Source: an uncultured Bacteroidia bacterium | Lineage (GTDB): Bacteria; Bacteroidota; Bacteroidia; Bacteroidales; F082 | Assembly (NCBI GenBank): GCA_902774365.1 | Contig: CACYHX010000019.1 | Location: forward strand, 1 to 52,752 | Length of the DNA stretch: 52,752 bases | Reading direction: 5' to 3' | In this document: one piece after another, positions 5,001 to 49,867 of the stretch | Position numbering within the stretch: position 1 is the stretch's first letter | Layout of the letters: every line of letters starts with the position of its first letter | Notes under the pieces: model-generated | Database searches by the model: none | What the model was told of the DNA's origin: nothing | What the model saw: the letters and a program-made list of their open reading frames with translations, nothing else | Position numbers and translations under genes: made by a program

Positions 5001-5790
5001 GCTGCATGGCCTCCATATTGAGAACTGCCTTCACGCGAGGCATGGTGATGATGTTTCTGAAGGGATACAACACCTTGACAGCGAACTTTACCCATCCTTG
5101 GTAATACACCGCAAGTCGACAATAGGCCTTTCTGAAGCCGAAATTCTCGATGAGAAAGTCCTGGATATTAGAGTGTTCCGTGATGGTGCGCGCGCTGTCG
5201 CTCACGTAATTGAAATGCTGCTCTTCAAGGTAATGTTGGTTCAGGTGTTGATATAGGCCGTAGTAGGGATAAAAGCCACCTTTCTTGTATTTCGACACGA
5301 TGCCCGTCACCTCGTATTCGCAGCAATGGTCCCACATACGCACCGTGCAAAAGCCGACCATCTGTTGTGATTCCTTTTCAAAGATGCCCCAATAGTCGAA
5401 CTGTCGCTCTTTGCAGTGGTTGAGATACTCCTCAAATACCGCTGGGTTCATTTTTTTGTCGCGGACGGCATAGTCGTCATAGGTCTCTTTGAGGATGGGA
5501 TAGGCCTTTTCCTGTATCGTTTCAAACGAAACCTGTTGGTAATCAAAGTATTGTTCGGCATGTCGGACCTTGTTTCTCACCCTTGACGGCAGCTCTTCCA
5601 TGCCTTGATATTGGTCTTTGATGACATACCAAAAGGATGTTTCTTGCTGACAATCAAAATTATAGGTGTTTCTCACCATCAGCCCGCCTTGCTTGAGCAT
5701 GGTCTTCCATTCCTGCTCTTGCAGTTGAGGCTCTTCGTGTGGTGCGCCGTCGAAACGCCAGGCTTGTCGGTAGAGGAAAAAGTCGTTCAT
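4987..5790 (-). CDS. GNAT-like (FemAB/acetyltransferase-fold) protein
   Basis: 267 residues from the ATG at 5790, whose A is shared with the TGA stop of the upstream glycosyltransferase gene (TGATG). A longer reading from 5853 exists but would run inside that gene. The second half looks like a GNAT fold: a strand and loop YWGIFEKESQQMVGFCTVR, a central strand EYEVTGIVSKYK, and a C-terminal FGFRKAYCRLAVYY, where GNATs usually have GF.. near the end. The substrate is unknown. In a glycan cluster, modification of an amino sugar or of a lipid-linked intermediate is plausible. The acyl-CoA pyrophosphate loop is not obvious. Confidence 0.65.
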   Translation of the reverse strand: MNDFFLYRQAWRFDGAPHEEPQLQEQEWKTMLKQGGLMVRNTYNFDCQQETSFWYVIKDQYQGMEELPSRVRNKVRHAEQYFDYQQVSFETIQEKAYPILKETYDDYAVRDKKMNPAVFEEYLNHCKERQFDYWGIFEKESQQMVGFCTVRMWDHCCEYEVTGIVSKYKKGGFYPYYGLYQHLNQHYLEEQHFNYVSDSARTITEHSNIQDFLIENFGFRKAYCRLAVYYQGWVKFAVKVLYPFRNIITMPRVKAVLNMEAMQRGKQ

Positions 5791-6545
5791 CACAGGCGTT
5801 TTTTGATGGCGTTGAAGGCATAGCATAAGAAGTAACGGACTGCTTTCGGCCACGACAGTTTTTCGTGTTGGCGATACACCGTCCAGAGGTCAAACGAGGC
5901 CTTGAATTTGTTGGAGCTCGCCGACTTTCTCCTGATCCTGTATGAAACCAAAGGCTCGTCGATGGCGTATGCCAGGTGCCCTTGTTTCAGGATGTCGAGC
6001 CAAGTGGCGGTGTCTTCGCTGGTGCGATAGAGGGGCACCACGACGTCACCCACGATGTTTTTGTCGACCATGACGGTGGAGCAGCCGATAATGGTGTTGC
6101 GCAGGTAGGCTTCATAATCCAAGTTGCCCGCCGTCTTGACGGATTTGTTCAAGGGCTGTCCGTTTTCGTCGATGCAGTCGTAGGTGGAATAGGTGAAGCC
6201 GACTTGTTTTTCGGTCATGAAGCGCAGCTGTGCTTCTAACTTGCCCATGTGCCAGATGTCGTCGGCGTCGAGGAAAGCCAAATAGCGACCCTGTGCCATT
6301 TTTATGCACATGTTACGTGAGTCGGCGATGCCTGAATGAAGGTCTTTGACGGTGTAATGGATCCTGTCGTCCTGTTGGCTATGGCTTTTGATGACGTTCA
6401 CCGTGTTGTCGGTCGAGGCGTCGTCAACGATGAGCAATTCCCAATGTGGATAAGTCTGCTGCCGCACCGAAACGATGGCGTCGGAGATGTATTTCTCCAT
6501 GTTGTAGCAGGGCATGATGACCGATACCAACGGCTGACTTTCCAC
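5790..6545 (-). CDS. Family 2 glycosyltransferase (GT-A fold)
   Basis: 251 residues. The N-terminus VSVIMPCYNMEKYISDAIVSV is the classical GT2 start. ELLIVDDASTD holds the first acidic nucleotide-binding residues and FLDADDIW holds the DxD metal/nucleotide-sugar motif (about residue 93). There is no transmembrane segment, so it probably works at the inner face of the cytoplasmic membrane in building a lipid-linked oligosaccharide. It starts 12 bp after the end of manC and overlaps the next gene by one base, so the cluster reads as one operon. The donor may be GDP-mannose given the neighbour, but this is inference. Confidence 0.92.
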   Translation of the reverse strand: MESQPLVSVIMPCYNMEKYISDAIVSVRQQTYPHWELLIVDDASTDNTVNVIKSHSQQDDRIHYTVKDLHSGIADSRNMCIKMAQGRYLAFLDADDIWHMGKLEAQLRFMTEKQVGFTYSTYDCIDENGQPLNKSVKTAGNLDYEAYLRNTIIGCSTVMVDKNIVGDVVVPLYRTSEDTATWLDILKQGHLAYAIDEPLVSYRIRRKSASSNKFKASFDLWTVYRQHEKLSWPKAVRYFLCYAFNAIKKRL

Positions 6546-6557
6546 GGCGTTAGGGTT

Positions 6558-7610
6558 TTATTTCAGACTTTCGATCCAGACTTTGATTTGTTGCTCGTCG
6601 TGGAGGCGACAGACGAGGAGGGAGTGGTCGCGATAGGCCACCAGATAGTCTTCCAGGCCTTCCACCACGGCTTCGGTGCCTTCCTCGATGTTGATGATGG
6701 TATTTTTGTTGTCCACCGAGACCACCTTGCCGCGTTTGGCGTTGCCATTTTCGTCTTTCTTGGCGTGGGTGAACAACGAACCCCATGTGCCGATGTCGCT
6801 CCAGCCAAAGTCGGCGGGGATGGTGTAAGTATTGGGCGACTTCTCCATCACGCCATAGTCGATGCTGATGTTGGGACAGTCCACAAAGTGGTCGTTGATG
6901 AAGTCTTGTTCCTCAGGCGTTCCGAAGTTATAGATGCCTTTTTCGAACACCTCGACCATCTCGGGTAGGTATTGCTGGAAGGCCTTCATGATGCCGTCCA
7001 AGGTCCAGAGGAAGATGCCGCTGTTCCAGAAGTAGTTGCCTTCTGCGACGAACTTCACGGCGGTGTCGAAGTCGGGTTTTTCCTTGAACATCTCCACTTT
7101 CACCACCTCGGGCAATAGGTCTTGCTTCGGTACTTGGATGTAGCCGTAGCCGGTTTCGGGACGAGAAGGTTTGATGCCGATGGTCATCAAGGCATTGGGT
7201 TGTTTTGCCAAGAAGTCGAAGCCCAAGCGGATGATGCGTTGGAACTCGGTTTCGTTGGTCACCAAGTGGTCGGCAGGTGTGACGACGATGTTGGCATCTG
7301 AGCAGCGGCTTTGGATGTGATAGGCAGCGTAAGCGATGCAAGGTGCCGTGTTGCGCCGTGCCGGCTCGCACAACACCTGGTCAGGACGCAGCATGGGCAG
7401 GTGTTCCAAGACGAGGTGCTTGTAGGCCTTGTTGGTCACCACGAGGAAGTTCTCGTCGGGGATGACGGGGCTGAAACGCTCGTAGGTGCTACGGATGAAG
7501 CTCTTTCCCGTTCCAAGGATGTCGAGGAATTGCTTGGGATAGTTATCTTTGCTGAGAGGCCAGAAGCGGCTACCGATGCCGCCGGCCATGATGATGCAGT
7601 AATTGTTCAT
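6558..7610 (-). CDS. manC: Mannose-1-phosphate guanylyltransferase
   Basis: 350 residues. It makes GDP-mannose from mannose 1-phosphate and GTP in the cytoplasm, feeding mannose, fucose and related residues of surface polysaccharides. The N-terminal signature AGGIGSRFWPLSKDNYPKQF (residues 9-28) has the GTP-binding GGxGxRxxPLS and the PKQ lysine. EPARRNTAPCIA, TPADHL and ETGYGYIQ are further family motifs. It is the short form without the C-terminal phosphomannose isomerase domain. The start ATG overlaps the stop of the upstream lipoprotein gene (ATGA), indicating translational coupling. Confidence 0.93.
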   Translation of the reverse strand: MNNYCIIMAGGIGSRFWPLSKDNYPKQFLDILGTGKSFIRSTYERFSPVIPDENFLVVTNKAYKHLVLEHLPMLRPDQVLCEPARRNTAPCIAYAAYHIQSRCSDANIVVTPADHLVTNETEFQRIIRLGFDFLAKQPNALMTIGIKPSRPETGYGYIQVPKQDLLPEVVKVEMFKEKPDFDTAVKFVAEGNYFWNSGIFLWTLDGIMKAFQQYLPEMVEVFEKGIYNFGTPEEQDFINDHFVDCPNISIDYGVMEKSPNTYTIPADFGWSDIGTWGSLFTHAKKDENGNAKRGKVVSVDNKNTIINIEEGTEAVVEGLEDYLVAYRDHSLLVCRLHDEQQIKVWIESLK

Positions 7611-11518: not shown

Positions 11519-13432
11519 TTATTTGTCCAACTGGCTGAAAATGCTGTTGTTGCTCTTGAACTCGGGCACGATGACCTTCATCTGCGCCACGATCTTCATC
11601 TCATCGCAGGTTTCAAGTTCGTTGTGGAGTTTCTCGATCATGCTGTCCACTTCGGAGGTCTCGTACTTCCTCACGATGGCGTGCATAATCTTCTCATTTT
11701 CAGTCTTGATGGTGTTTTCTTCGTTGGCCAAGACCTCTTCGTAGAGTTTTTCGCCCGGACGGAGACCTGTCTCGACGATTTCGATTTCGGGACGGTGGGC
11801 CAATTTGCGCATCTTCTCGGCCAAGTCCCAGATCTTGACTTTTTCGCCCATGTCGAAGACGAAGATGTCGCCGCCTTCGCCGATGGAGCCAGCCTCGAGT
11901 ACGAGGCTACAGGCCTCGGGAATGGTCATGAAGAAACGGGTGATACGACGGTCGGTGACGGTGATGGGACCGCCTTGTTCGATTTGCTTGCGGAACAGCG
12001 GCACCACTGAGCCATTCGAACCCAACACATTGCCGAAGCGTGTGGTGATGAACTTGGTGTTGCCTTGGCGGCTTTGCGTGTAAATCTCCGCAATACGCTT
12101 GGTGGCGCCCATCACGTTGGTCGGGTTGACGGCCTTGTCGGTCGAAATCATGACGAACTTCTCCACGCCGTATTCTATCGCCAAGTCGGCCACGAGTTTG
12201 GTGCCGAACACATTGACAAACACAGCCTCATAGGCGTTTTCCTCCATGAAAGGCACATGTTTGTAGGCAGCGGCATGAAACACCACTTGAGGATGATACT
12301 GCTCAAACACCTCCCTCATGCGGATCGGGTCTTTCACGTTGGTGATGACGAAAGCCATCTTGTCGCGTTTTTTCTTGAACTCGGGCGTGTTGTTCATCTC
12401 AAACTGGAAGTCGTACATCGGCGACTCTGCCTGGTCGAGCATGATGAGTTTGGTGGGGTTGTATTGCATCGCCTGACGGCAGATCTCGCTACCTATGGAA
12501 CCTGCGGCACCCGTCACAAGCACCACTTTGTCCTTGATCTCACGGGTCACATTTTCCTTGCCTAAAGTGATAGGCTGACGGCCCAAAAGGTCTTCAATCT
12601 TGACGTCTTGGATTTGATTCGACTTGATTTCACCGTCGACCCATTTGGTGAACGGAGGTATGGTTTTCACGATGAGGTTGAGGGCAAGCCCTTGTTCCAT
12701 AATTTCCTTCGAACGCTTCTCATCCAGACTCGGAATGGCCAACACCATCACCTCTACCTTGTGTTTCTTGATGAATTCTTCCGTCATGGCTGTGGCGGGC
12801 GAAAGAATCTTGATGGTATTAATCTGGGAACCAACACGTTTCGGGTTGTCGTCGACGAAGGCAATCACACGCAGCTTGGAGGTAGTGTCTTGTGAGAGCG
12901 TTCTCAAAAGCATGGTGCCGCCGTCGCCGGCGCCATAGATGATGGTATTCTGCTTGACAGTGGGCGTCTTATAGTTTTCATTATACATTCGCCTGATGAC
13001 CAAACGCAAGATAATCATCATCACCATCGTGATGAGATAGTGGTAGAAAATGATGACGAATGGCGGATAAATCTCTATGGCAACCCAAGGTAAAAACTTG
13101 ATAAACAAGAATTTACTTACAATATAAAACACAAAGGTCAAAGAGCATGACGACAAAATCTTACGAATGTCGTTGAAGCCGGAATAGCGCAACATACCAT
13201 CGTAGGTCTTGCTAATCAAGAATGCGATGAGATAGGGTAGTGGATAAATCCAGATTAACTTCCAATTGATTACCAAGTCGGCAAGGTCGGTGGAAAAATA
13301 CATCAAAACGGCCAAAATATAGGCGAAGACCACAATACCCATGTCCACCGCCAGAATCCAGATACGGGGCAGGGTGTTGTTTTTGTGTTTTCCAAAGACG
13401 AAGTCACAGAAATGTCGAATCAATTTGCGCAT
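11519..13432 (-). CDS. Membrane-anchored UDP-sugar 4,6-dehydratase (WbpM/PglF/CapD family)
   Basis: 637 residues. About four N-terminal transmembrane helices (roughly 23-150) anchor it. A first Rossmann-like region IYGAGDGGTMLLRTL and a second, catalytic SDR domain VTGAAGSIGSEICRQ follow. STDKAVNPTNVMGATKR (about 430-446) is the active-site segment in which the usual SDR Tyr of YxxxK is Met, typical of the large WbpM class. The enzyme normally converts UDP-GlcNAc to the 4-keto-6-deoxy intermediate for bacillosamine, QuiNAc or FucNAc-type sugars. It works at the cytoplasmic face of the inner membrane for O-antigen, capsule or protein glycosylation. It has its own promoter (13457-13487), and the YdiJ-like gene follows directly. 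Confidence 0.93.
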   Translation of the reverse strand: MRKLIRHFCDFVFGKHKNNTLPRIWILAVDMGIVVFAYILAVLMYFSTDLADLVINWKLIWIYPLPYLIAFLISKTYDGMLRYSGFNDIRKILSSCSLTFVFYIVSKFLFIKFLPWVAIEIYPPFVIIFYHYLITMVMMIILRLVIRRMYNENYKTPTVKQNTIIYGAGDGGTMLLRTLSQDTTSKLRVIAFVDDNPKRVGSQINTIKILSPATAMTEEFIKKHKVEVMVLAIPSLDEKRSKEIMEQGLALNLIVKTIPPFTKWVDGEIKSNQIQDVKIEDLLGRQPITLGKENVTREIKDKVVLVTGAAGSIGSEICRQAMQYNPTKLIMLDQAESPMYDFQFEMNNTPEFKKKRDKMAFVITNVKDPIRMREVFEQYHPQVVFHAAAYKHVPFMEENAYEAVFVNVFGTKLVADLAIEYGVEKFVMISTDKAVNPTNVMGATKRIAEIYTQSRQGNTKFITTRFGNVLGSNGSVVPLFRKQIEQGGPITVTDRRITRFFMTIPEACSLVLEAGSIGEGGDIFVFDMGEKVKIWDLAEKMRKLAHRPEIEIVETGLRPGEKLYEEVLANEENTIKTENEKIMHAIVRKYETSEVDSMIEKLHNELETCDEMKIVAQMKVIVPEFKSNNSIFSQLDK

Positions 13433-13456: not shown

Positions 13457-13487
13457 CAAAACTACTACTTTTTTCTTTTGTCTCAAA
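13457..13487 (-). promoter_or_regulatory. Promoter of the 4,6-dehydratase gene
   Basis: Minus strand: a -33 TTTG (13487-13484), a 19-bp spacer and a -7 TAGTTTTG (13464-13457). The -33 box touches the stop codon of the mutarotase gene. Confidence 0.7.
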
Positions 13488-13806
13488 AAATCTTTTCCAT
13501 CAGATGCCATTTGCCTGTCGAAGGCAGGTTGGGGTCGGCACCTTGACACTGAGCTACATAGGCTTCCCACTCCGCTTGGCGAGGCAAGGTGGCCAGTCGT
13601 GCCATATCACGGTCCCAGTCAAAGTCATCCACTGTGTCGCAAATCATAAACACATGGTTTTCAAAACGATAAATCTGCATATCAAGGATGCCGACTTGAC
13701 GTTGGCCTTCGATTACTTCGGGCCACACATGGGCGTGTAGCTCGCAATATTTTGCTATAAGTTCGGGGTCGTTGACGAGTTCGAGGGTTTGGCAATAACG
13801 TTTCAT
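13483..13806 (-). CDS. RhaM-family sugar mutarotase (probably L-fucose mutarotase)
   Basis: 107 residues from ATG 13806, which overlaps the stop of the fucP-like gene (ATGA). Longer readings upstream lie inside that gene and are rejected. The sequence fits the L-rhamnose mutarotase/DUF718 family of small dimeric alpha-beta proteins: MKRYCQTLELVNDPELIAKY, HAHVWPEV with the conserved His, IYRFENHVFMICD and a WEAYV segment. Such enzymes interconvert alpha and beta anomers of 6-deoxyhexoses. Because the partner transporter is FucP-like, I infer that L-fucose is the substrate. It is the last gene of the 16300-13483 operon. Confidence 0.82.
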   Translation of the reverse strand: MKRYCQTLELVNDPELIAKYCELHAHVWPEVIEGQRQVGILDMQIYRFENHVFMICDTVDDFDWDRDMARLATLPRQAEWEAYVAQCQGADPNLPSTGKWHLMEKIF

Positions 13807-15098
13807 TGTTTCTCGGTTTTGGTGATGAAAAAGCCGTAAAGCACGATAACCATAAAGCAAACCAGCGGCAAAACGAAACTCAGATTCACCGAAGCGATGC
13901 TTCCCAGTCCGTTGCCGTCGATGATGCGGGCCTGCAAGGGAGGCAACACCGAGCCGCCCAAGATGGCCATGATGAGTCCAGCCGCTCCCAGTTTGGCGTC
14001 CTCGCCCGTGTCGGTCAGGGCGATGCCGTAAATGGTCGGGAACATGAGGCTCATGCATGCCGAGACGGCCACAAGGCAATACATTCCGGCTCTGCCGTCA
14101 AGGAAGATGACACCCAGCACCAACACCGCTCCGGCGATGCCCAGATAGGTCAACAGTTTGGACGGGTGGATGTATTTCAGCAGGAAGGTGCAGATGAAAC
14201 GGCTGACGCAGAAGATGGCCATAGCCACGATGTTGTAGCGTTGCGAGAGCACCTCGGCGGCTTGCTCCGTCATGCCTTCGTTCATGAAGACACGCGTGCC
14301 GTATTGGATGATGAAGGTCCAGCACATGATTTGTACGCCGACATAGAAGAACTGTGCCACCACGCCGTAACGATACGGTTTGTTCAGCCACAGGCGTTTC
14401 AGGGTGGGGCCAAAATTTTGGTCGGTGGTTTCTGTCGATTTGGGCTGTGTCTTTACCAACAGCAAGATGACCACGAAAAAGACCACCAAAACGGCACCGA
14501 TGATGACATAAGGGCGGCTCAACACAGCAAGATCGGCGTTTTTGACGGCTTCAAACTGGTCTTCCGACAGCAGGGCGCGTTCCTCGGTGCTCAAGGGGTT
14601 GAGTTTGGCTTGGATGAACTGCATCGCCACAAACATGCCTGCCAGCGAGCCTATGGGATTGAAGGCCTGGGCGAGGTTGAGGCGGCGCGTGGCGGTGTCT
14701 TTGTCGCCCAAGGAGAGGATATAGGGGTTGGCCGTGGTCTCGAGGAACGAGAGGCCGCAAGTGAGCACGAAATAAGCGATGAGGAAGGGATAATAGTTGC
14801 CAGTGGCCTTGGCGGGGAGGAACATCAGGGCGCCGAGGGCATAGAGGCCGAGGCCCATGAGCAGACCGGCTTTATACGAGAACTTGCGCACAAACAAGGC
14901 GGCGGGCAAGGCCATGCAGAAGTAGCCGCCATAGAAGGCCAGCTGCACCAGTGCGCCATCGGTGACGCTCATGCGGAAGATCTTGGAGAAGGCTTTCACC
15001 ATGGGGTTGGTGATGTCGTTGGCGAAGCCCCACAAGGCGAAGCAACAGGTCACCAGCACGAAGGCCAAGAGGTATTTTCTTTCTACTATTTTGTTCAT
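13803..15098 (-). CDS. fucP: Fucose permease-type MFS transporter
   Basis: 431 residues with twelve hydrophobic segments, matching the fucose/galactose/glucose:H+ symporter family. ALWGFANDITNPMV (about 22-35) carries the acidic residue matching the sugar-binding Asp of E. coli FucP. SFLETTANPYILSLGD (about 117-132) carries the Glu used in proton coupling. NLAQAFNPIG is a further FucP-family motif. It imports a free sugar with a proton across the inner membrane. The gene overlaps its neighbours on both sides by 4 bp, so kinase fusion, permease and mutarotase should be made together. L-fucose is the likeliest substrate; hexoses are possible in this subfamily. Confidence 0.85.
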   Translation of the reverse strand: MNKIVERKYLLAFVLVTCCFALWGFANDITNPMVKAFSKIFRMSVTDGALVQLAFYGGYFCMALPAALFVRKFSYKAGLLMGLGLYALGALMFLPAKATGNYYPFLIAYFVLTCGLSFLETTANPYILSLGDKDTATRRLNLAQAFNPIGSLAGMFVAMQFIQAKLNPLSTEERALLSEDQFEAVKNADLAVLSRPYVIIGAVLVVFFVVILLLVKTQPKSTETTDQNFGPTLKRLWLNKPYRYGVVAQFFYVGVQIMCWTFIIQYGTRVFMNEGMTEQAAEVLSQRYNIVAMAIFCVSRFICTFLLKYIHPSKLLTYLGIAGAVLVLGVIFLDGRAGMYCLVAVSACMSLMFPTIYGIALTDTGEDAKLGAAGLIMAILGGSVLPPLQARIIDGNGLGSIASVNLSFVLPLVCFMVIVLYGFFITKTEKQ

Positions 15099-16300
15099 AT
15101 TCTTCTGATTTTAAGAGCGATGGCCTCTGGATGGTTTTGACAAAAAGATGGAGTATCCTTGACCACACAAGCGAGATAGCCGCCACCGCCGGCACCGGGC
15201 ATCTTCCACGCCAACACTTCTTCCATGGCGGAATACTTGTCGATGTAGTCCTTTATTGTGGGAGATTGCGGCTCGGAGGCCGCAATGACCCCAGAGGGGT
15301 GAATCATACCTGGGAACATGGCGGTTTGGGCATCGAACGAGGCTTTGTAGGCCGCTGCAAAAGCGTTCAAGTCCTTGTTCATGATAGCGTTCCAGCAGTC
15401 GTCGGCAGCCTTGGCCAAGGCCTTGACCTTCGGCTCGGTGATGTCCTTGCCTTCCACCACAGAGCATCCTGGACGGCGTGGCTCCATGGGTATCATGATG
15501 AGATGGCTTTCGAGCCAGTCAAGGATAGCATCGTCTTGGCACGTCTCAATCTTGACGGGCCAGTAGAGTTTGTCGTAGTAATGCCTCACCAAGCCCGGCA
15601 TACAGATGCCGATGCTGTCTTGTGCCCCGCTGATGATGCCGTCGCTGCGCTCGGGGTCGTTCTCAAAGCAGAAGACGAGTTTGGCGAGGGTCTCGGGGTC
15701 CATGTCAGGCAGTTGCATGGGCCATATTTTCTTGATCATATTACGCGTCGAGGTGGAGAGGCCGCAGCGTTCACGGATTTCAAAGGTGGGTTTCAATGAG
15801 ATGGTGATGGCCCAGCCTGGGGCAAAACACGACACATACGGCTGGTCGATCCAGGTGCCGGCAAGATCCAAGCGTGTTGGAATCTCGCAGAGGTCTTGTT
15901 TTAAAGCCGTCGAAGAACGGGCCTCCAAGCCCTCTGAGGGCGTGCGTTGCAGCACCACGTATTCGATGCCGCGCTCTTCGCAAAAACGCCGTTTTTCGTC
16001 CGACGATCCGTCTTCGTTGACCACAAAGATGTCGGGTTTGAGCCTGTCGACGGTATTCACAAAATCCATCACGCCATTGCCGTCGTTGATGAAGGCGTCC
16101 TTCACATAGCGGATGGCTTTCACCATGAAGAGGCGTTCTTTTTCGGGGTAGAGCGTCTTGTGGTTTTTGTAGTGCAGGATGGTCTCATCGGAGCCGATGC
16201 CGACATAGAGGTCGCCATATTGCGCCGCTTGTCGAAAGAACTCGATGTGACCGCTGTGTAAGAGGTCGTAACAGCCTGAGACAAATACTTTTTTGGTCAT
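15095..16300 (-). CDS. Bifunctional nucleotidyltransferase - GHMP kinase-like fusion
   Basis: 401 residues in two parts. Residues 1-135 are a cytidylyltransferase-like HxGH domain: VFVSGCYDLLHSGHIEFFRQ (5-24), a GSDE segment, and RSSTALK (about 129-135), equivalent to the ISST motif. Residues 136-401 resemble a compact GHMP kinase: RLDLAGTWID (motif 1), CGLSTSTR in the place of motif 2, ISGAQDSIGICMPGL, and KMPGAGGGGYLACVV (motif 3, about 365-380). This suggests phosphorylation of a free sugar plus NMP transfer, analogous in logic to HldE or to the Bacteroides FKP enzyme but from different domains. A short palindrome (15261-15289) is inserted in frame just before motif 3. The gene heads an operon with fucP and a mutarotase. 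Substrate and kinase competence are inferred, not shown. Confidence 0.75.
   Translation of the reverse strand: MTKKVFVSGCYDLLHSGHIEFFRQAAQYGDLYVGIGSDETILHYKNHKTLYPEKERLFMVKAIRYVKDAFINDGNGVMDFVNTVDRLKPDIFVVNEDGSSDEKRRFCEERGIEYVVLQRTPSEGLEARSSTALKQDLCEIPTRLDLAGTWIDQPYVSCFAPGWAITISLKPTFEIRERCGLSTSTRNMIKKIWPMQLPDMDPETLAKLVFCFENDPERSDGIISGAQDSIGICMPGLVRHYYDKLYWPVKIETCQDDAILDWLESHLIMIPMEPRRPGCSVVEGKDITEPKVKALAKAADDCWNAIMNKDLNAFAAAYKASFDAQTAMFPGMIHPSGVIAASEPQSPTIKDYIDKYSAMEEVLAWKMPGAGGGGYLACVVKDTPSFCQNHPEAIALKIRRI
15261..15289. repeat. Half-size palindromic repeat inside the fusion kinase gene
   Basis: GGAGATTGCGGC..GCCGCAATGAC with 8-bp arms, flanked by TGGG/CCCA extending the dyad. It is read in frame as GVIAASEPQSPT, the same reading as the CGLDPQSP half of the elements at 18504 and 20795. 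Confidence 0.65.
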
Positions 16301-16342: not shown

Positions 16343-16960
16343 CTACATCATTTGTACTTCTGCCAAGGCTGACACGAAGTACCAACGGCCGTTAGTTTCA
16401 CAGTAGCATTTGTAACGGGTGCGTTGTTTCTCCCCTTTTTGGAAGACGAGGCCGTTTTTCAATGTAAAACGAGCGCCTTGGGGAAGGCTTTCCACCGTAG
16501 TGACGGTGGTAACGTTTTTGTCGTATTGCCTTAAAACACGTTGCAGGTTTTGATCGGCAGAGCTGCTGGCTTTGATGTGTTGCAGGTGCTTTTTCAGGGC
16601 TTCCAATATGTCGTTCGGAAAGATGGAATCGGTCATGAAAGGCTGCAACAAAGCTGCAAATTGTTGTTGCCATTTTGTTCCATGGGGTTGCACTTGTCGC
16701 GAGCCATATTGCTGATACACATCATAATGCGCTACCTCATGGACATAGGTGATGAGCATCTGATAAGGGTTCAGGTCCAGGTTAAGGGTGATGGAACAGA
16801 TGCCGTTGGGGGTCCGGGGCGGACGGAAGTCGCCGAGTTTGGAGCTGCGTGGTCGCTTGAAATGCAGCTTGAACCTGCGTTGCTCGTAGATCGCGCCTAC
16901 CATAAGCACGGCGGCCTCGGGGAAATAGCGCTTCAGCAATGCAAGTTCTTCAGCCTTCAT
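16343..16960 (-). CDS. SprT-like zinc metalloprotease-fold protein
   Basis: 205 residues. The motif HEVAHYDVYQQYG (HExxH, about 74-78) followed by PHGTKWQQQF (second His plus GxxW) is the SprT-like signature. In eukaryotes this fold (Spartan) degrades DNA-protein crosslinks; bacterial SprT proteins are poorly characterised cytosolic proteins. The C-terminal third carries a CxC (YKCYCETNGRW) in place of the full zinc-ribbon cysteines. A small lipoprotein gene ends 4 bp upstream of its start, suggesting co-transcription. Confidence 0.85.
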   Translation of the reverse strand: MKAEELALLKRYFPEAAVLMVGAIYEQRRFKLHFKRPRSSKLGDFRPPRTPNGICSITLNLDLNPYQMLITYVHEVAHYDVYQQYGSRQVQPHGTKWQQQFAALLQPFMTDSIFPNDILEALKKHLQHIKASSSADQNLQRVLRQYDKNVTTVTTVESLPQGARFTLKNGLVFQKGEKQRTRYKCYCETNGRWYFVSALAEVQMM

Positions 16961-44883: not shown

Positions 44884-44999
44884 GATTGCCTTCGGCAAGA
44901 AATCTTTCAAAATCGAAATTAAAATCTTTCAAAATCTTGGAAATCATTTTTTGAATGATTTTGAAAACAGATTTTGTTAGATTTCTTGCGAAGCAATTC
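44884..44999. repeat. Hairpin-bounded repeat before permease 1
   Basis: The left end GATTGCCTTCGGCAAGAAAT... is an inverted, slightly diverged copy of the right end ATTTCTTGCGAAGCAATTC. Each end forms a small hairpin. Inside are AATCTTTC direct repeats and an AAATCATT..AATGATTT dyad. It is followed by an AACAATTCAACAATCAACAA leader up to ATG 45030. Confidence 0.6.
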
Positions 45000-45029
45000 G
45001 AACAATTCAACAATCAACAATTTAACGTC

Positions 45030-47393
45030 ATGAGACTATACAAAAAAGGCAAGACCTCCCTCGTGTCTTCCATCCTGAACATCTTGGGCTTGACGGCAGC
45101 CTTCGCCGCGCTCTACATCATCCTTGTGCAGGTGCACCACGACCTCACCTACAATAAGGCACTTAAGGACAGCGACCAGATTTATGTCCTTACAAAGAAA
45201 GAAATCAATCAAAGTGAATACACTTCTTATTTGAACCGTCCTATGGGGGAGTATGTGCTCAACGCTTCCCCTGACATTGAAGCCGGCGGCTGCGGTAAAA
45301 TCACGGGCAATCCCATCGCGGTTCGGGTCGGCGATGATCAATCGCCTGTGTCCATCACGATAACTGCCATGAACAAAGGCGCTCGCGAGGTGTTCGGCTT
45401 CGAACTGGTGGCTGGCAACTGGGATGATCTGACAGGCACTGGCTTCGCCCTCTCGGAATCGGCGGCAAAACGCCTTGGAGTCCAAGTGGGTGATGTGATG
45501 CAGTATTATGATGGATCTGCGTGGCAGGGGATATCCATCGTGGCCATCTATAAAGACATGCCGAAGCACAGCGACCTTTCCTCTTTCGAAATGCTTACCG
45601 ATATGGGTGATAATTGCCTCGACGATTGGAAGGAGTTTTCGTTCAACTATTTTCTGAAACTTCGTAAAGGCGCCGATCCCAAGGCGATTACCGATGTGGC
45701 AATGCCAGTAGTCAAGCAGTTTTTCAGCGAGGTGAATGGTGGTGTTGAGATTACGGACGATGATGTCAAGTTCGGGCTTTACCCCGTTCGGCTGACCGAT
45801 ATGTACTTCGACAGCAATTCGTATTATGCCCCTGGCAAGGCGGGCAACAAAACCACAACGATGACCCTGCTCATCATTGCCATTTTTGTGTTGGTCATCG
45901 CATTCATCAACTACATCAATTTCTTCTTCGCGATGGTGCCGTTGCGCCTGCGGAGCATCAACACGCGCAAGATATTGGGCAGCAGTCGTTTCCAGTTGGT
46001 GATGTCGTCGGTGGGCGAATCGGTGCTGATGGTGGTCATTGCCTTGGGTTTGGCGGTCGCTGTAGTCACCTTGTTCAGGCAATCCACCTTGGCCTCGATG
46101 ATTGACACTTCTCTCGATTTCGGCCAAAACTGGGGTGTTGTGGCTTTGACCATTGGTTTGGCGTTGCTTATCTCGGTGGTCGCCAGCCTCTATCCGGCCT
46201 TGTTCGCCACCTCGTTCAACCCCGCTTTTGCCCTGAAAGGCACCCTCGGCACTACACAGAAGGGCAAGGCATTCCGCATCGGCTTGATTGGCTTGCAGTT
46301 CACCGTTTCCATCGTCCTGATTATCTGTGCGATATTCGTCTCCGAGCAACGTCGTTTTATGATGAATCACGAAATGGGCTTCAACCAAGAATGTCTTTTG
46401 CAGTCGCAGGTGTCGTGGGACCTTGCCACCAACCGCCAAGTCGTTGAGAGTCAGTTGTTGACCGATGCAGCCATCAAGGACATCGCATGGGGTGATGGGC
46501 CTTTCGTAAATGATTACCGCATGAGTTGGGGACGCAAAGTACGGGGCGAGGATGCCGGTTGGGATGTCTATCCCGTTTCGTGGAACTTCCTCCGTTTCAT
46601 GGGCATCGACATTGTGGAAGGTCGCGATTTCACGGAAGCCGACGAGCATTCCTCGGGTACATATATTTTCAACGAAACTGCACGGGACGTATATCAAATC
46701 ACCCTTGAAGACCAGATTGGAGGGCATGATGACCAAATCGCTGAGATTGCCGGTTTCTGCAAGGACTTCAACTTTGCCTCGTTGCGTCAAGAGATTAAAC
46801 CTTTTGCATTCTATGTTTACGGCAAAGATCCATGGCATATTTGCAATCGGCTGTATATCCGCACCGAGGCTGGCGTGGATGTCCCCGCCGTGATGGAGCG
46901 CATCAGGAAAACCCTCAACGACCTCGACTCCAATATGGGCGACGAAATATCATACGATGTGTGGCCTTTCTCACAATCCCTTGAAAACCAATACAAAAAG
47001 GAGCAAAACCTTTCGAAGTTGGTTACACTGTTCACGATTTTGGCCATCGTCATCTCGCTGATGGGTGTGTTCGGCTTGGTGATGTTCGAGACGGAGCACC
47101 GCCGCAAGGAGATTGGCATCCGTCGTGTGCACGGCGCCACCGTGGGGCAGATTCTGGCGATGTTCAACTCGCGCTTCGTAAAAGTTGTGCTGGTTTGTTT
47201 CGTCGTCGCCGTGCCCGTGAGCATCGTCATCATGCGGCGTTATTTGGAGGGCTTCGCCTATCAGGTGCCGCTGCATGTCTGGGTGTTTGTCTTGGCGCTG
47301 TTGGCGGTTTTGGCGGTTACAATTGCGGTGGTCACCTTGCGCAGTTTGCGGGCCGCTACGGTGAATCCAGTGAAATCCTTACGTAATGAATAA
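45030..47393 (+). CDS. FtsX/MacB-type ABC permease, paralogue 1
   Basis: 787 residues from ATG 45030 (MRLYKKGKT); a reading from 44955 exists but begins in the repeat element. Topology: TM1 (about 15-36, NILGLTAAFAALYIILVQVH), a MacB periplasmic core-like domain (about 40-285), three helices (about 290-420), a further helix (about 440-465) after a KGKAFRIGLIG stretch, a second periplasmic domain, then the C-terminal FtsX helices with ETEHRRKEIGIRRVHGAT. Such double-FtsX permeases work with a MacB/LolD ATPase as mechanotransmission or export systems for peptides, lipoproteins or drugs. The transported substrate is unknown. First of three consecutive permease genes under the sigma-54 promoter. 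Confidence 0.9.
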   Translation: MRLYKKGKTSLVSSILNILGLTAAFAALYIILVQVHHDLTYNKALKDSDQIYVLTKKEINQSEYTSYLNRPMGEYVLNASPDIEAGGCGKITGNPIAVRVGDDQSPVSITITAMNKGAREVFGFELVAGNWDDLTGTGFALSESAAKRLGVQVGDVMQYYDGSAWQGISIVAIYKDMPKHSDLSSFEMLTDMGDNCLDDWKEFSFNYFLKLRKGADPKAITDVAMPVVKQFFSEVNGGVEITDDDVKFGLYPVRLTDMYFDSNSYYAPGKAGNKTTTMTLLIIAIFVLVIAFINYINFFFAMVPLRLRSINTRKILGSSRFQLVMSSVGESVLMVVIALGLAVAVVTLFRQSTLASMIDTSLDFGQNWGVVALTIGLALLISVVASLYPALFATSFNPAFALKGTLGTTQKGKAFRIGLIGLQFTVSIVLIICAIFVSEQRRFMMNHEMGFNQECLLQSQVSWDLATNRQVVESQLLTDAAIKDIAWGDGPFVNDYRMSWGRKVRGEDAGWDVYPVSWNFLRFMGIDIVEGRDFTEADEHSSGTYIFNETARDVYQITLEDQIGGHDDQIAEIAGFCKDFNFASLRQEIKPFAFYVYGKDPWHICNRLYIRTEAGVDVPAVMERIRKTLNDLDSNMGDEISYDVWPFSQSLENQYKKEQNLSKLVTLFTILAIVISLMGVFGLVMFETEHRRKEIGIRRVHGATVGQILAMFNSRFVKVVLVCFVVAVPVSIVIMRRYLEGFAYQVPLHVWVFVLALLAVLAVTIAVVTLRSLRAATVNPVKSLRNE

Positions 47394-47458: not shown

Positions 47459-49867
47459 ATGGCTCGAATCTATAAAAAAGGCAAGACCATTCTCGTTTCC
47501 TCTATCCTGAATATCTTGGGCTTGACGGCAGCCTTCGCCGCGCTCTACATCATCCTCGTGCAGGTGCACCACGACCTCACCTACAACAAGGCACTCAAAG
47601 ACAGCGAAAGGATTTATGTCCTTACCATGCCAGACCGGTTTTCAAACAATGTTTATTCGACATACGTCAATCGTCAGATGTCGGAAGCGGTCATTGCTGC
47701 TGTCCCCAGCGTAGAGGCGGGCTGCTGCGCTGCCAATTTAGGGAACCTCGAAGTTTCCGTACGCTTGGGCGAAGGACAGTCGTCGGTCGATTTGAGAGTC
47801 ACCAGTTTCTCCAAACCCGCCATCGACGTGTTTGGATTTGAACTTGTTGCAGGCAATTTGAATAATTGGATTAGTAACACGGATGCGGTTATGTCCGAGT
47901 CAGCGGCCAAACGCTTGGGCTTGCAGGTGGGCGACCATTTCCAATATGGCTCCTGGAATTGGACAGATGTCACGGTAGCGGCCATCTACAAGGATATGCC
48001 TGTCAACAGCGACCTTTCCTCCATCGACTTTATTCTGAATCTGGGCGAAGCGGGTATGAGCGATTGGACCCAATGGGGCTGGAATTATTTCATAAAACTC
48101 GCTGAAGGCGCTGACCCCAAAGAGTTCGATGAAATTGCACACCAAGTCGCCTTTGACCTTTTTAAGACAAAATTCGACATTGACGAAAGCAATTTGACCG
48201 AAGAAAAAGCAGCGGATATTGAGGGATATAAAAAAATGATGTCACCTCATCTTATGAAGTTGACGGACAATTATTTTGCCGATAATGTCGGGCATCCGGG
48301 CAAGTCGGGCAATCGCACCACGACCATCACCTTGCTTGTCATTGCCATTTTCGTGATGCTCATTGCTTTCATCAATTACATTAACTTCTTCTTCGCGATG
48401 GTGCCGCTACGTCTGCGGAGTATCAACACACGCAAGATATTGGGCAGCAGCCGTTTCCAGTTGGTGATGTCGTCGGTGGGCGAGTCTGTGCTGATGGTAG
48501 TTATCGCTCTTGGACTGGCAGTGGCTGTGGTTACGCTGTTCAGACAATCCACCTTGGCTGCGCTGATTGAAACACCGTTGAACTTCGGCCAGAATTTGGG
48601 TATTGCGGCTTTGACCATCGGTATCGCCTTGCTCATTTCGGTGTTGGCCAGCCTCTATCCGGCCTTGTTCTCCACCTCGTTCAATCCTGCTTTTGCCTTG
48701 AAAGGCACACTCGGCACCACGCAGAAAGGCAAGGCTTTCCGCATCGGCTTGATAGGCTTGCAGTTCACCGTGAGCATCGTGCTGATTATCTGTGCGATTT
48801 TTGTTCATCAGCAACGCGATTTCATGATGAATCACGACATGGGTTTCAATCAAGAAAACCTGCTTCAGTCGCATGTGACATGGGAACTCGCCAACAACCG
48901 TGAAACTGTCGAGAATCAGTTGAAAACAGATGCTGACATCAAGGACATCGCATGGGGCGACGGCCCGTTTGTGGCCAACAGCCGTATGGCGTGGAGCCGC
49001 GAGTTCAAAAGTGATTCTGAGGGTCTGTCATGGCAGGTCTATCCAGTTTCTTGGAACTTCCTGCGTTTTATGGGTATTGACATTGTGGAAGGCCGCGACT
49101 TTACTCCTGCCGACGAGCAATCGGAAAACGGAGTCTATATCATCAACGAGACGGCTCAGAAAATGTACGGCATCACCACTGAAGACAGAATCTGGGGTCA
49201 TAAAGATGCCCCTGCCGAGATTGCCGGTATTTGCAAGGACTTCAACTTCTCTGCTTTGCGCGATGAGATTAGTCCATTTGCATTCTATGTCTATGGCAAG
49301 GAGCCGTGGAGTCCGTGCATGAGGCTGTTCATCCGCACTGAAGTTGGCGTTGATACCCAAGCTTTGATGGAACGCACAATAAAAACCCTCAACGACCTTG
49401 ATCCGACATTAGGCGATGGCTTTTCGGTTTGGATGAGGCCATTTAAACAATCCATTGAGAACCAATACAAAAAGGAGCAAAACCTCTCGAAGTTGGTCAC
49501 GCTGTTCACGATTTTGGCCATCGTCATCTCGCTGATGGGCGTGTTCGGCTTGGTGATGTTCGAGACGGAGCGTCGCCGCAAGGAGATTGGCATCCGTCGT
49601 GTGCACGGCGCCACGGTGCAGCAGATCCTGGCGATGTTCAACTCGCGCTTTGTTAAAGTTGTGCTGGTGTGCTTCGTCATCGCTGTGCCCGTGAGCATCG
49701 TCATCATGCGGCGTTATTTGGAGGGCTTCGCCTATCAGGTGCCGATGCATGTCTGGGTGTTTGCCCTCGCGCTGTTGGCAGTGTTGGCTGTAACGATTGC
49801 GGTGGTCACCTTGCGCAGTTTGCGGGCGGCTACGATGAATCCGGTGAAGTCGTTAAGGACAGAATAA
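47459..49867 (+). CDS. FtsX/MacB-type ABC permease, paralogue 2
   Basis: 802 residues, same plan as the gene before it. Residues 1-60, the central helix block (FINYINFFFAMVPLRLRSIN, KILGSSRFQLVMSSVGESVL and TLGTTQKGKAFRIGLIGLQF are shared) and the C-terminal FtsX block are almost identical to paralogue 1. The two periplasmic parts (about 60-290 and 500-680) differ clearly. This pattern fits tandem duplication with homogenised membrane parts and diversified sensing or substrate domains. It should form homo- or heterodimers with its neighbours around one ATPase. Confidence 0.9.
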   Translation: MARIYKKGKTILVSSILNILGLTAAFAALYIILVQVHHDLTYNKALKDSERIYVLTMPDRFSNNVYSTYVNRQMSEAVIAAVPSVEAGCCAANLGNLEVSVRLGEGQSSVDLRVTSFSKPAIDVFGFELVAGNLNNWISNTDAVMSESAAKRLGLQVGDHFQYGSWNWTDVTVAAIYKDMPVNSDLSSIDFILNLGEAGMSDWTQWGWNYFIKLAEGADPKEFDEIAHQVAFDLFKTKFDIDESNLTEEKAADIEGYKKMMSPHLMKLTDNYFADNVGHPGKSGNRTTTITLLVIAIFVMLIAFINYINFFFAMVPLRLRSINTRKILGSSRFQLVMSSVGESVLMVVIALGLAVAVVTLFRQSTLAALIETPLNFGQNLGIAALTIGIALLISVLASLYPALFSTSFNPAFALKGTLGTTQKGKAFRIGLIGLQFTVSIVLIICAIFVHQQRDFMMNHDMGFNQENLLQSHVTWELANNRETVENQLKTDADIKDIAWGDGPFVANSRMAWSREFKSDSEGLSWQVYPVSWNFLRFMGIDIVEGRDFTPADEQSENGVYIINETAQKMYGITTEDRIWGHKDAPAEIAGICKDFNFSALRDEISPFAFYVYGKEPWSPCMRLFIRTEVGVDTQALMERTIKTLNDLDPTLGDGFSVWMRPFKQSIENQYKKEQNLSKLVTLFTILAIVISLMGVFGLVMFETERRRKEIGIRRVHGATVQQILAMFNSRFVKVVLVCFVIAVPVSIVIMRRYLEGFAYQVPMHVWVFALALLAVLAVTIAVVTLRSLRAATMNPVKSLRTE

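Follow-up and report, generated by a model that had tools for sequence, protein, structure and literature searches.

FKP of Bacteroides fragilis, a bifunctional L-fucokinase/GDP-L-fucose pyrophosphorylase of about 950 residues covered by the curated model NF009948, takes L-fucose to GDP-L-fucose. HldE (RfaE), a heptose-7-phosphate kinase/heptose-1-phosphate adenylyltransferase, joins an HxGH nucleotidyltransferase to a sugar kinase of the PfkB/ribokinase type. The cytidylyltransferases TagD, HldC, and Fom1 have the nucleotidyltransferase fold with its HxGH motif, and the heptokinases HddA and WcbL have the GHMP sugar-kinase fold with motifs 1–3. Here we describe a 401-residue fusion of an HxGH nucleotidyltransferase with a GHMP kinase-like half, encoded with FucP and a RhaM-family protein in a stretch of 52,752 nucleotides (the window; contig CACYHX010000019.1) from an uncultured member of the Bacteroidales. 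It is fairly likely, judging from sequence and genome context, that this three-gene unit imports L-fucose and that the fusion activates it to GDP-L-fucose in place of FKP, as an independently assembled enzyme. The directly observed features are the gene content, the family, its neighborhoods, its non-overlap with FKP, the conserved pocket residues, and the predicted fold. The genes are:

15095..16300, minus strand: nucleotidyltransferase-GHMP fusion, 401 residues, proposed bifunctional L-fucose kinase/L-fucose-1-phosphate nucleotidyltransferase (profiles, models, alignments, context)
13803..15098, minus strand: FucP, L-fucose:H+ symporter (TIGR00885 588.8 bits, cut-off 280.4)
13483..13806, minus strand: RhaM-family mutarotase, 107 residues, proposed L-fucose mutarotase (PF05336 95.2 bits, cut-off 23.4)

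The order along the minus strand is fusion, FucP, RhaM family, with four-base overlaps at 15095–15098 and 13803–13806. The first-pass annotation had recognized these as three overlapping genes (FucP-like, RhaM-like, and the fusion), and positions, overlaps, and profile matches bear it out. The FucP match is at equivalog level; the RhaM-family protein passes the broader PF05336 and falls short of the rhamnose mutarotase equivalog TIGR02625 (YiiL/RhaM; 14.5 versus 99.6 bits). That annotation also reasoned that import, anomer exchange, and a kinase/nucleotidyltransferase would together yield a nucleoside diphosphate (NDP)-sugar, with domains unlike those of FKP. This logic is largely supported as a prediction, and gene context narrows the sugar to L-fucose. 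In the proposed pathway, FucP would import L-fucose, for example after its release by alpha-L-fucosidases, and the RhaM-family protein would interconvert the anomers, speeding supply of the right one. The GHMP half would then act as a C1 kinase with D228 as base, producing L-fucose-1-phosphate (the beta anomer, as with FKP), and the HxGH half would transfer a nucleoside monophosphate from a nucleoside triphosphate, most likely GTP. The resulting GDP-L-fucose, the activated sugar with which cell-surface glycans are decorated, would go to fucosyltransferases. The substrate, anomer, phosphoryl donor, base, and product are inferred from these data.

The N-terminal half of the fusion matches PF01467 (60.6 bits, cut-off 21; residues 7–134) and carries the HxGH motif, as members of the HxGH nucleotidylyltransferase superfamily do. 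The GHMP-like half follows. It scores 15.0 bits against PF08544, below the cut-off of 21, which is passed by relatives in loci L187 (21.4 bits) and L185 (23.4 bits); the GHMP fold and its three motifs are found in the window protein by profile, model, and alignment. The motifs are HSGH, RSST, PTRLDLAGTWIDQ, GLSTSTR, GAQD, and GAGGGG, placed as follows:

16247..16258, minus strand: HSGH (HxGH) motif of the nucleotidyltransferase half, residues 15–18 (H15, G17, and H18 invariant in 59 sequences)
15908..15919, minus strand: RSST motif of the nucleotidyltransferase half, residues 128–131 (sequence, alignment)
15839..15880, minus strand: GHMP motif 1, PTRLDLAGTWIDQP, residues 141–154 (R143, W150, and D152 match FKP R592, W599, and D601)
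15743..15763, minus strand: GHMP motif 2, GLSTSTR, residues 180–186 (aligned with FKP GLGTSS by MAFFT; placed differently by hhalign)
15617..15628, minus strand: GAQD, residues 225–228 (Q227 and D228 match FKP Q761 and the general base D762)
15179..15196, minus strand: GHMP motif 3, GAGGGG, residues 369–374 (profile, alignment)

By its role in the HxGH superfamily, RSST is presumably the phosphate-binding loop of the nucleotidyltransferase half. Among 59 aligned members (37–90% identity of the others to the window protein), the invariant residues are H15, G17, H18, R143, W150, D152, Q153, G180, S184, R186, G225, Q227, and D228; E213, T131, and G369–G372 are almost so. Such conservation marks the fusion as a conserved protein and no chance open frame.

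How does this protein compare with the known systems? With FKP it shares the proposed overall reaction, the fold of the kinase half, and most pocket residues. It is nonetheless no FKP member, since it lacks the pyrophosphorylase half that defines FKP and falls far short of the curated model (21.7 bits over residues 360–383; cut-off 721). No Pfam match to a GDP-fucose pyrophosphorylase domain appears at E 1; in its place stands PF01467, a nucleotidyltransferase that is HxGH-type, N-terminal, and of an unrelated family. The likeness to HldE ends at the kinase, which in the fusion is GHMP, with no PfkB/ribokinase-type Pfam domain found; the HldE whole-protein model NF008454 gives 29.8 bits against a cut-off of 521. 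TagD, HldC, and Fom1 differ in lacking a GHMP half and in acting on other substrates. HddA and WcbL lack a nucleotidyltransferase half; six kinases used for comparison below were labeled HddA-like by us from their sequences.

In the FKP structure, fucose-1-phosphate is contacted by Asp762, Asp601, Thr602, and Gln761 and stacks on Trp599; Arg592 and Glu751 are also implicated, and Asp762 is the general base (PMC11982464). An FKP from a sampled genome (L112) has all of these residues at the same numbers. When a chosen set of 18 fusion sequences was aligned with FKP by MAFFT, R592, W599, D601, E751, G759, Q761, and D762 of FKP were kept in all 18, the window equivalents being R143, W150, D152, E213, G225, Q227, and D228. 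Five of these positions (R592, W599, D601, Q761, and D762) are invariant in all 59 fusion members, whereas each of the six HddA-like kinases has G in place of W599.

The first-pass annotation had called motif 2 (CGLSTSTR) unusual and kinase activity therefore uncertain. That doubt is weakened: in the MAFFT alignment, motif 2 of the fusions, G[LM][SA][TS]S[TS], occupies the place of FKP GLGTSS, and all 18 sequences retain both phosphate-loop hydroxyls (Ser followed by Thr or Ser). The real oddity lies between motifs 1 and 2, where a segment that houses the adenine pocket in FKP appears to be missing: by MAFFT, the two motifs are 26 residues apart in the fusion, 112 in FKP, 90–91 in the HddA-like kinases, and 36 in a distant fusion paralogue of about 450 residues. 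A predicted helix starts at residue 183 of the fusion model. Because the FKP phosphate loop also precedes a helix (PMC11982464), this agrees with the MAFFT placement of motif 2.

An AlphaFold2 model built from 59 sequences has a mean pLDDT of 88.4 and a pTM of 0.69; each half is well predicted, their mutual arrangement less so. The best GHMP match of this model in Foldseek is FKP fucokinase with beta-L-fucose-1-phosphate (9iip, E 7.5e-10), followed by WcbL (2.6e-9) and the Bacteroides thetaiotaomicron heptokinase (4.0e-7), and its nucleotidyltransferase matches include Fom1, TagD, and HldC. A profile search of PDB sequences with the GHMP half likewise returns FKP fucokinase (7e-11), then HddA (2.5e-6) and WcbL (5.3e-4).

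Members of this conserved fusion family occur mainly in Bacteroidales. Of 88 relatives recovered from species genomes, the 80 best (the close loci below) were retained, at 68–96% identity; nearly all of these 80 come from uncultured Bacteroidia- or Bacteroidales-type organisms, and two of the loci represent one isolate. A search for the fusion across Bacteroidetes, with its co-occurrence with FKP and fucose catabolic genes, had been proposed in the first-pass annotation and was carried out. A profile of 40 members matched 66 of 393 genomes of the order at E 1e-30 or better. Ten match only the ~450-residue paralogue (E 2e-43 to 7e-36), and their removal leaves 56, one of which (G396) is a partial match over profile positions 2–177 only. 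In a phylum-wide sample of 395 genomes, the four fusion matches were the window's own genome and three genomes outside the order.

FKP also occurs in Bacteroidales, but was not found together with the fusion in the sampled genomes. It exceeds its cut-off in 27 of the 393 genomes, with an overlap of zero with the 56 fusion genomes against 3.85 expected (P 0.013), and zero again among gmd-positive genomes (P 0.0047); both P values were computed without phylogeny and are uncorrected for shared ancestry, which detracts from the case. Five families (f8, f20, f23, f43, and f105) contain both proteins, in different genomes, and the window's own genus has FKP as well, in G006 and G025. Among 60 near relatives, four have FKP, 29 have a full-type fusion, and none has both. 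In the window's own genome no FKP was found, the sole NF009948 match (E 8.4e-4) being the fusion gene itself. That genome has gmd and three alpha-L-fucosidase matches over cut-off, and gmd (E 1e-80) is matched in 47/56 fusion genomes and 190/337 others.

Could FucP and RhaM serve fucose catabolism alone? We rejected this as their sole role, as neither the window's own genome (82.6% complete; no FucI match at E 1e-40) nor three genomes of the same genus (G136, G236, and G321; 99% complete, and also without FKP) has a FucI match. In the order as a whole, FucI over cut-off in 31/56 fusion genomes and 10/24 FKP genomes tested neither tracks nor excludes the fusion family.

Gene neighborhoods point to L-fucose. 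The 80 close loci are related to each other and partly truncated, and more distant members were therefore sampled: 40 loci were fetched, and 35 remained when L173–L177, which hold only the paralogue, were set aside. At least one of gmd, fcl, manC, fucP, rhaM, and fucI is present in 21 of the 35 (gmd 11, fcl 10, fucP 10, rhaM 5, manC 5, fucI 2) and in none of 40 control stretches, which were hand-picked at arbitrary contig positions in 30 of the same genomes, nine of them shorter than 11 kb (total length 565 kb for the loci, 572 kb for the controls). In the close loci, 65 of 80 have at least one marker in the fetched DNA (rhaM 51, fucP 41, gmd 32, fcl 30, manC 22). Identity thresholds for both counts were of our choosing. 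The FucI query for the 35 loci was taken from L185, and both fucI genes counted are independently over the TIGR01089 cut-off. A curated-profile check of representatives put gmd (503.7 bits) and three FucP proteins over cut-off, with Fcl (479.6, cut-off 500) and a manC-like protein (273.2, cut-off 372.95) below. Gene order around the fusion varies between lineages; the association has therefore outlasted rearrangement.

Alpha-L-fucosidases (PF01120) are confirmed near the fusion in L154, L155, and L181. A fourth, in L185, is a BLAST match over 477/481 residues; weaker matches occur in L153 and L159, and the 40 control stretches have none at E 1e-15. In L185 and L187, fucI lies near fucP and the fusion. 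Three loci (L153, L154, and L155) encode a protein of 592–595 residues in which a RhaM domain (68.5–76.1 bits) precedes the nucleotidyltransferase and GHMP halves, a direct link of mutarotase to activating enzyme; two of them, L154 and L155, are among those with a fucosidase nearby.

Several observations weigh against this reading. FKP Thr602 is replaced by Gln in all 18 aligned fusions, and W599 is kept also in 5/5 of the ~450-residue paralogues, so that the tryptophan alone is no proof of fucose. The span from R592 to D762 is about 85 residues shorter in the fusion than in FKP wherever the gap is placed, and in the MAFFT alignment the FKP adenine-pocket positions D644, M645, P666, and I669 are empty. 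Moreover, hhalign sets the gap elsewhere and leaves motif 2 unaligned with GLGTSS. The interdomain confidence of the model is moderate, as its pTM indicates, and an earlier model from 40 sequences ranked the WcbL heptokinase (3.2e-8) ahead of FKP (2.0e-7) in Foldseek. In profile-profile comparison against small sets (paralogue 5, FKP 12, and HddA-like 6 sequences), the GHMP half is closest to the paralogue (E 4.9e-25), then FKP (1.5e-17) and the HddA-like kinases (9.8e-9). At the genome level, nine of the 56 fusion genomes have no gmd match at E 1e-80. All six markers are missing from 14 of the 35 distant loci; in this group L153 and L154 carry a fused RhaM domain, and a fucosidase is present in L154 and L181, but the other 11 give no support. 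Fifteen of the 80 close loci, some on short contigs, have no marker.

The nucleotide base is a real uncertainty. The HxGH superfamily is known for using CTP and ATP, and we know of no GTP-using sugar-1-phosphate member. The same sugar and kinase might thus feed CDP-L-fucose or ADP-L-fucose to a dedicated transferase; the nearest solved relatives of the nucleotidyltransferase half are cytidylyltransferases, including TagD, Fom1, and HldC, and the heptose-1-phosphate adenylyltransferase domain model TIGR02199 gives 48.7 bits (cut-off 181.5). We judge this outcome unlikely, given that the fusion is linked again and again to gmd, fcl, and manC, genes on the way to GDP-L-fucose, and shows zero overlap with FKP, which also makes GDP-L-fucose. 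GDP is favored as the base because the partner genes make GDP-L-fucose and the fusion family appears to replace FKP; GTP is therefore the most likely donor from context.

Two further alternatives we regard as improbable, and equally so. The missing adenine pocket (MAFFT leaves 26 residues between motifs 1 and 2, where FKP has 112) could mean that the GHMP half is no kinase and acts as a fucose sensor, or as a recognition domain for a sugar-1-phosphate made elsewhere; the retention of R592, E751, D762, and both phosphate-loop hydroxyl positions in 18/18 sequences would be unexpected in a dead kinase. Alternatively, the physiological sugar might be D-arabinose, L-galactose, or another close relative that shares the ring pattern of L-fucose. 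FKP itself accepts D-arabinose (PMC12732313), but the FucP equivalog, and the alpha-L-fucosidases, gmd, and fcl nearby, speak for fucose.

Activation of L-rhamnose is very improbable: PF05336 is named for L-rhamnose mutarotase and the window's own genome contains a gene resembling L-rhamnose isomerase (530 bits, below the cut-off of 584.95), but the RhaM-family protein fails the rhamnose equivalog, the isomerase-like gene lies on another contig (C24), and the nearby markers found are fucose genes, rhamnose genes not having been sought in the sampled loci. A heptose pathway of the HldE/HddA kind was marked down, since the similarity is confined to the nucleotidyltransferase, the HddA-like kinases have G for W599, and the neighboring markers found are fucose genes, heptose genes likewise not having been sought in the sampled loci.

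Returning to L-fucose and GDP, a more detailed version of the proposal is possible, though we lean slightly against its holding in full: a second, independently assembled bifunctional route leading from the free sugar to GDP-L-fucose, with a nucleotidyltransferase of the TagD/HldE HxGH type, turned sugar-1-phosphate guanylyltransferase, joined to a GHMP kinase without the usual adenine pocket and, in some cases, to the mutarotase as a three-step enzyme. Such a kinase would possibly use relaxed or non-ATP phosphoryl donors, or have its pocket supplied by the other domain. The route from L-fucose to GDP-L-fucose via FKP is known; what may be new is the nucleotidyltransferase-GHMP makeup for an FKP-like job. 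Among the matches listed from the literature searched, in titles and the beginnings of abstracts, no assignment of the fusion to fucose was found, most subscription journals and all preprints lying outside that scope; the terms "cytidyl" and "nucleotidyltransferase" are absent from the available text of PMC12732313.

In the mouse gut, a B. fragilis mutant with neither the de novo nor the salvage route to GDP-L-fucose is rapidly outcompeted (PMC8698959). Tannerella forsythia lacks FKP and, according to the same paper, depends on Fcl alone for GDP-L-fucose. If the fusion is a functional replacement, many Bacteroidales without FKP could still salvage fucose (fusion in 56/393 genomes, FKP in 27/393). 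It would also represent a non-homologous replacement of the FKP pyrophosphorylase half, a test case for nucleotide binding by a GHMP kinase without the standard pocket, and a compact candidate of 401 residues for making GDP-fucose.

The family has variants. The ~450-residue paralogue occurs in L173–L176 and L203 (e.g., L175:7165–8514); in it, too, the segment that separates motif 1 from motif 2 is mostly absent. The L175 protein scores 108.3 bits for HddA and 94 bits for the heptose-1-phosphate adenylyltransferase domain, both below cut-off; the paralogue may be a relative of the shorter fusion family that activates heptose. Divergent copies at L159:7979–9115 and L196:1495–2628 have C for Asp at FKP position 594 and an altered motif 3. 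The L159 copy lies near fucP and rhaM homologues, and genomes G211 and G602 hold such a copy beside a standard one; possibly these act on a different substrate or have an altered kinase.

The operon itself also varies. In L005 (11203–12483) and L006 (9847–11127), FucP is only 50% identical while RhaM is 93% and 91% identical and the operon is otherwise conserved, which suggests that the transporter gene was replaced. Two recurrent kinds of small open reading frame (ORF; ~116–161 residues) lie in or near the operon in 15/80 loci each (L011, L014, L017, L018, L021, and others), as if inserted repeatedly.

An SprT-like gene (16343–16960; PF10263 24.8 bits, just below the cut-off of 25.6) lies 42 bases upstream of the window fusion on the same strand; a homologue is upstream in 18/80 close loci, at a distance of about 3 kb in some of them. 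Downstream of the three-gene unit, also on the same strand, is an FAD/FeS oxidoreductase gene, along with the following:

11519..13432, minus strand: membrane-anchored nucleotide-sugar dehydratase/epimerase (Polysacc_synt_2), the next gene downstream, context only (PF02719 382 bits)
6558..7610, minus strand: mannose-1-phosphate guanylyltransferase-like protein (GDP-mannose supply), further downstream (TIGR01479 280.5 bits, below the cut-off of 372.95)
5790..6545, minus strand: glycosyltransferase, downstream, context only (NF047683 303.6 bits, below the cut-off of 400)

Elsewhere in the window, the adjacent ORFs 44955–47393 and 47459–49867, each of about 800 residues, are near-identical by eye over their first ~45 residues, and the pair looks like a tandem duplication.

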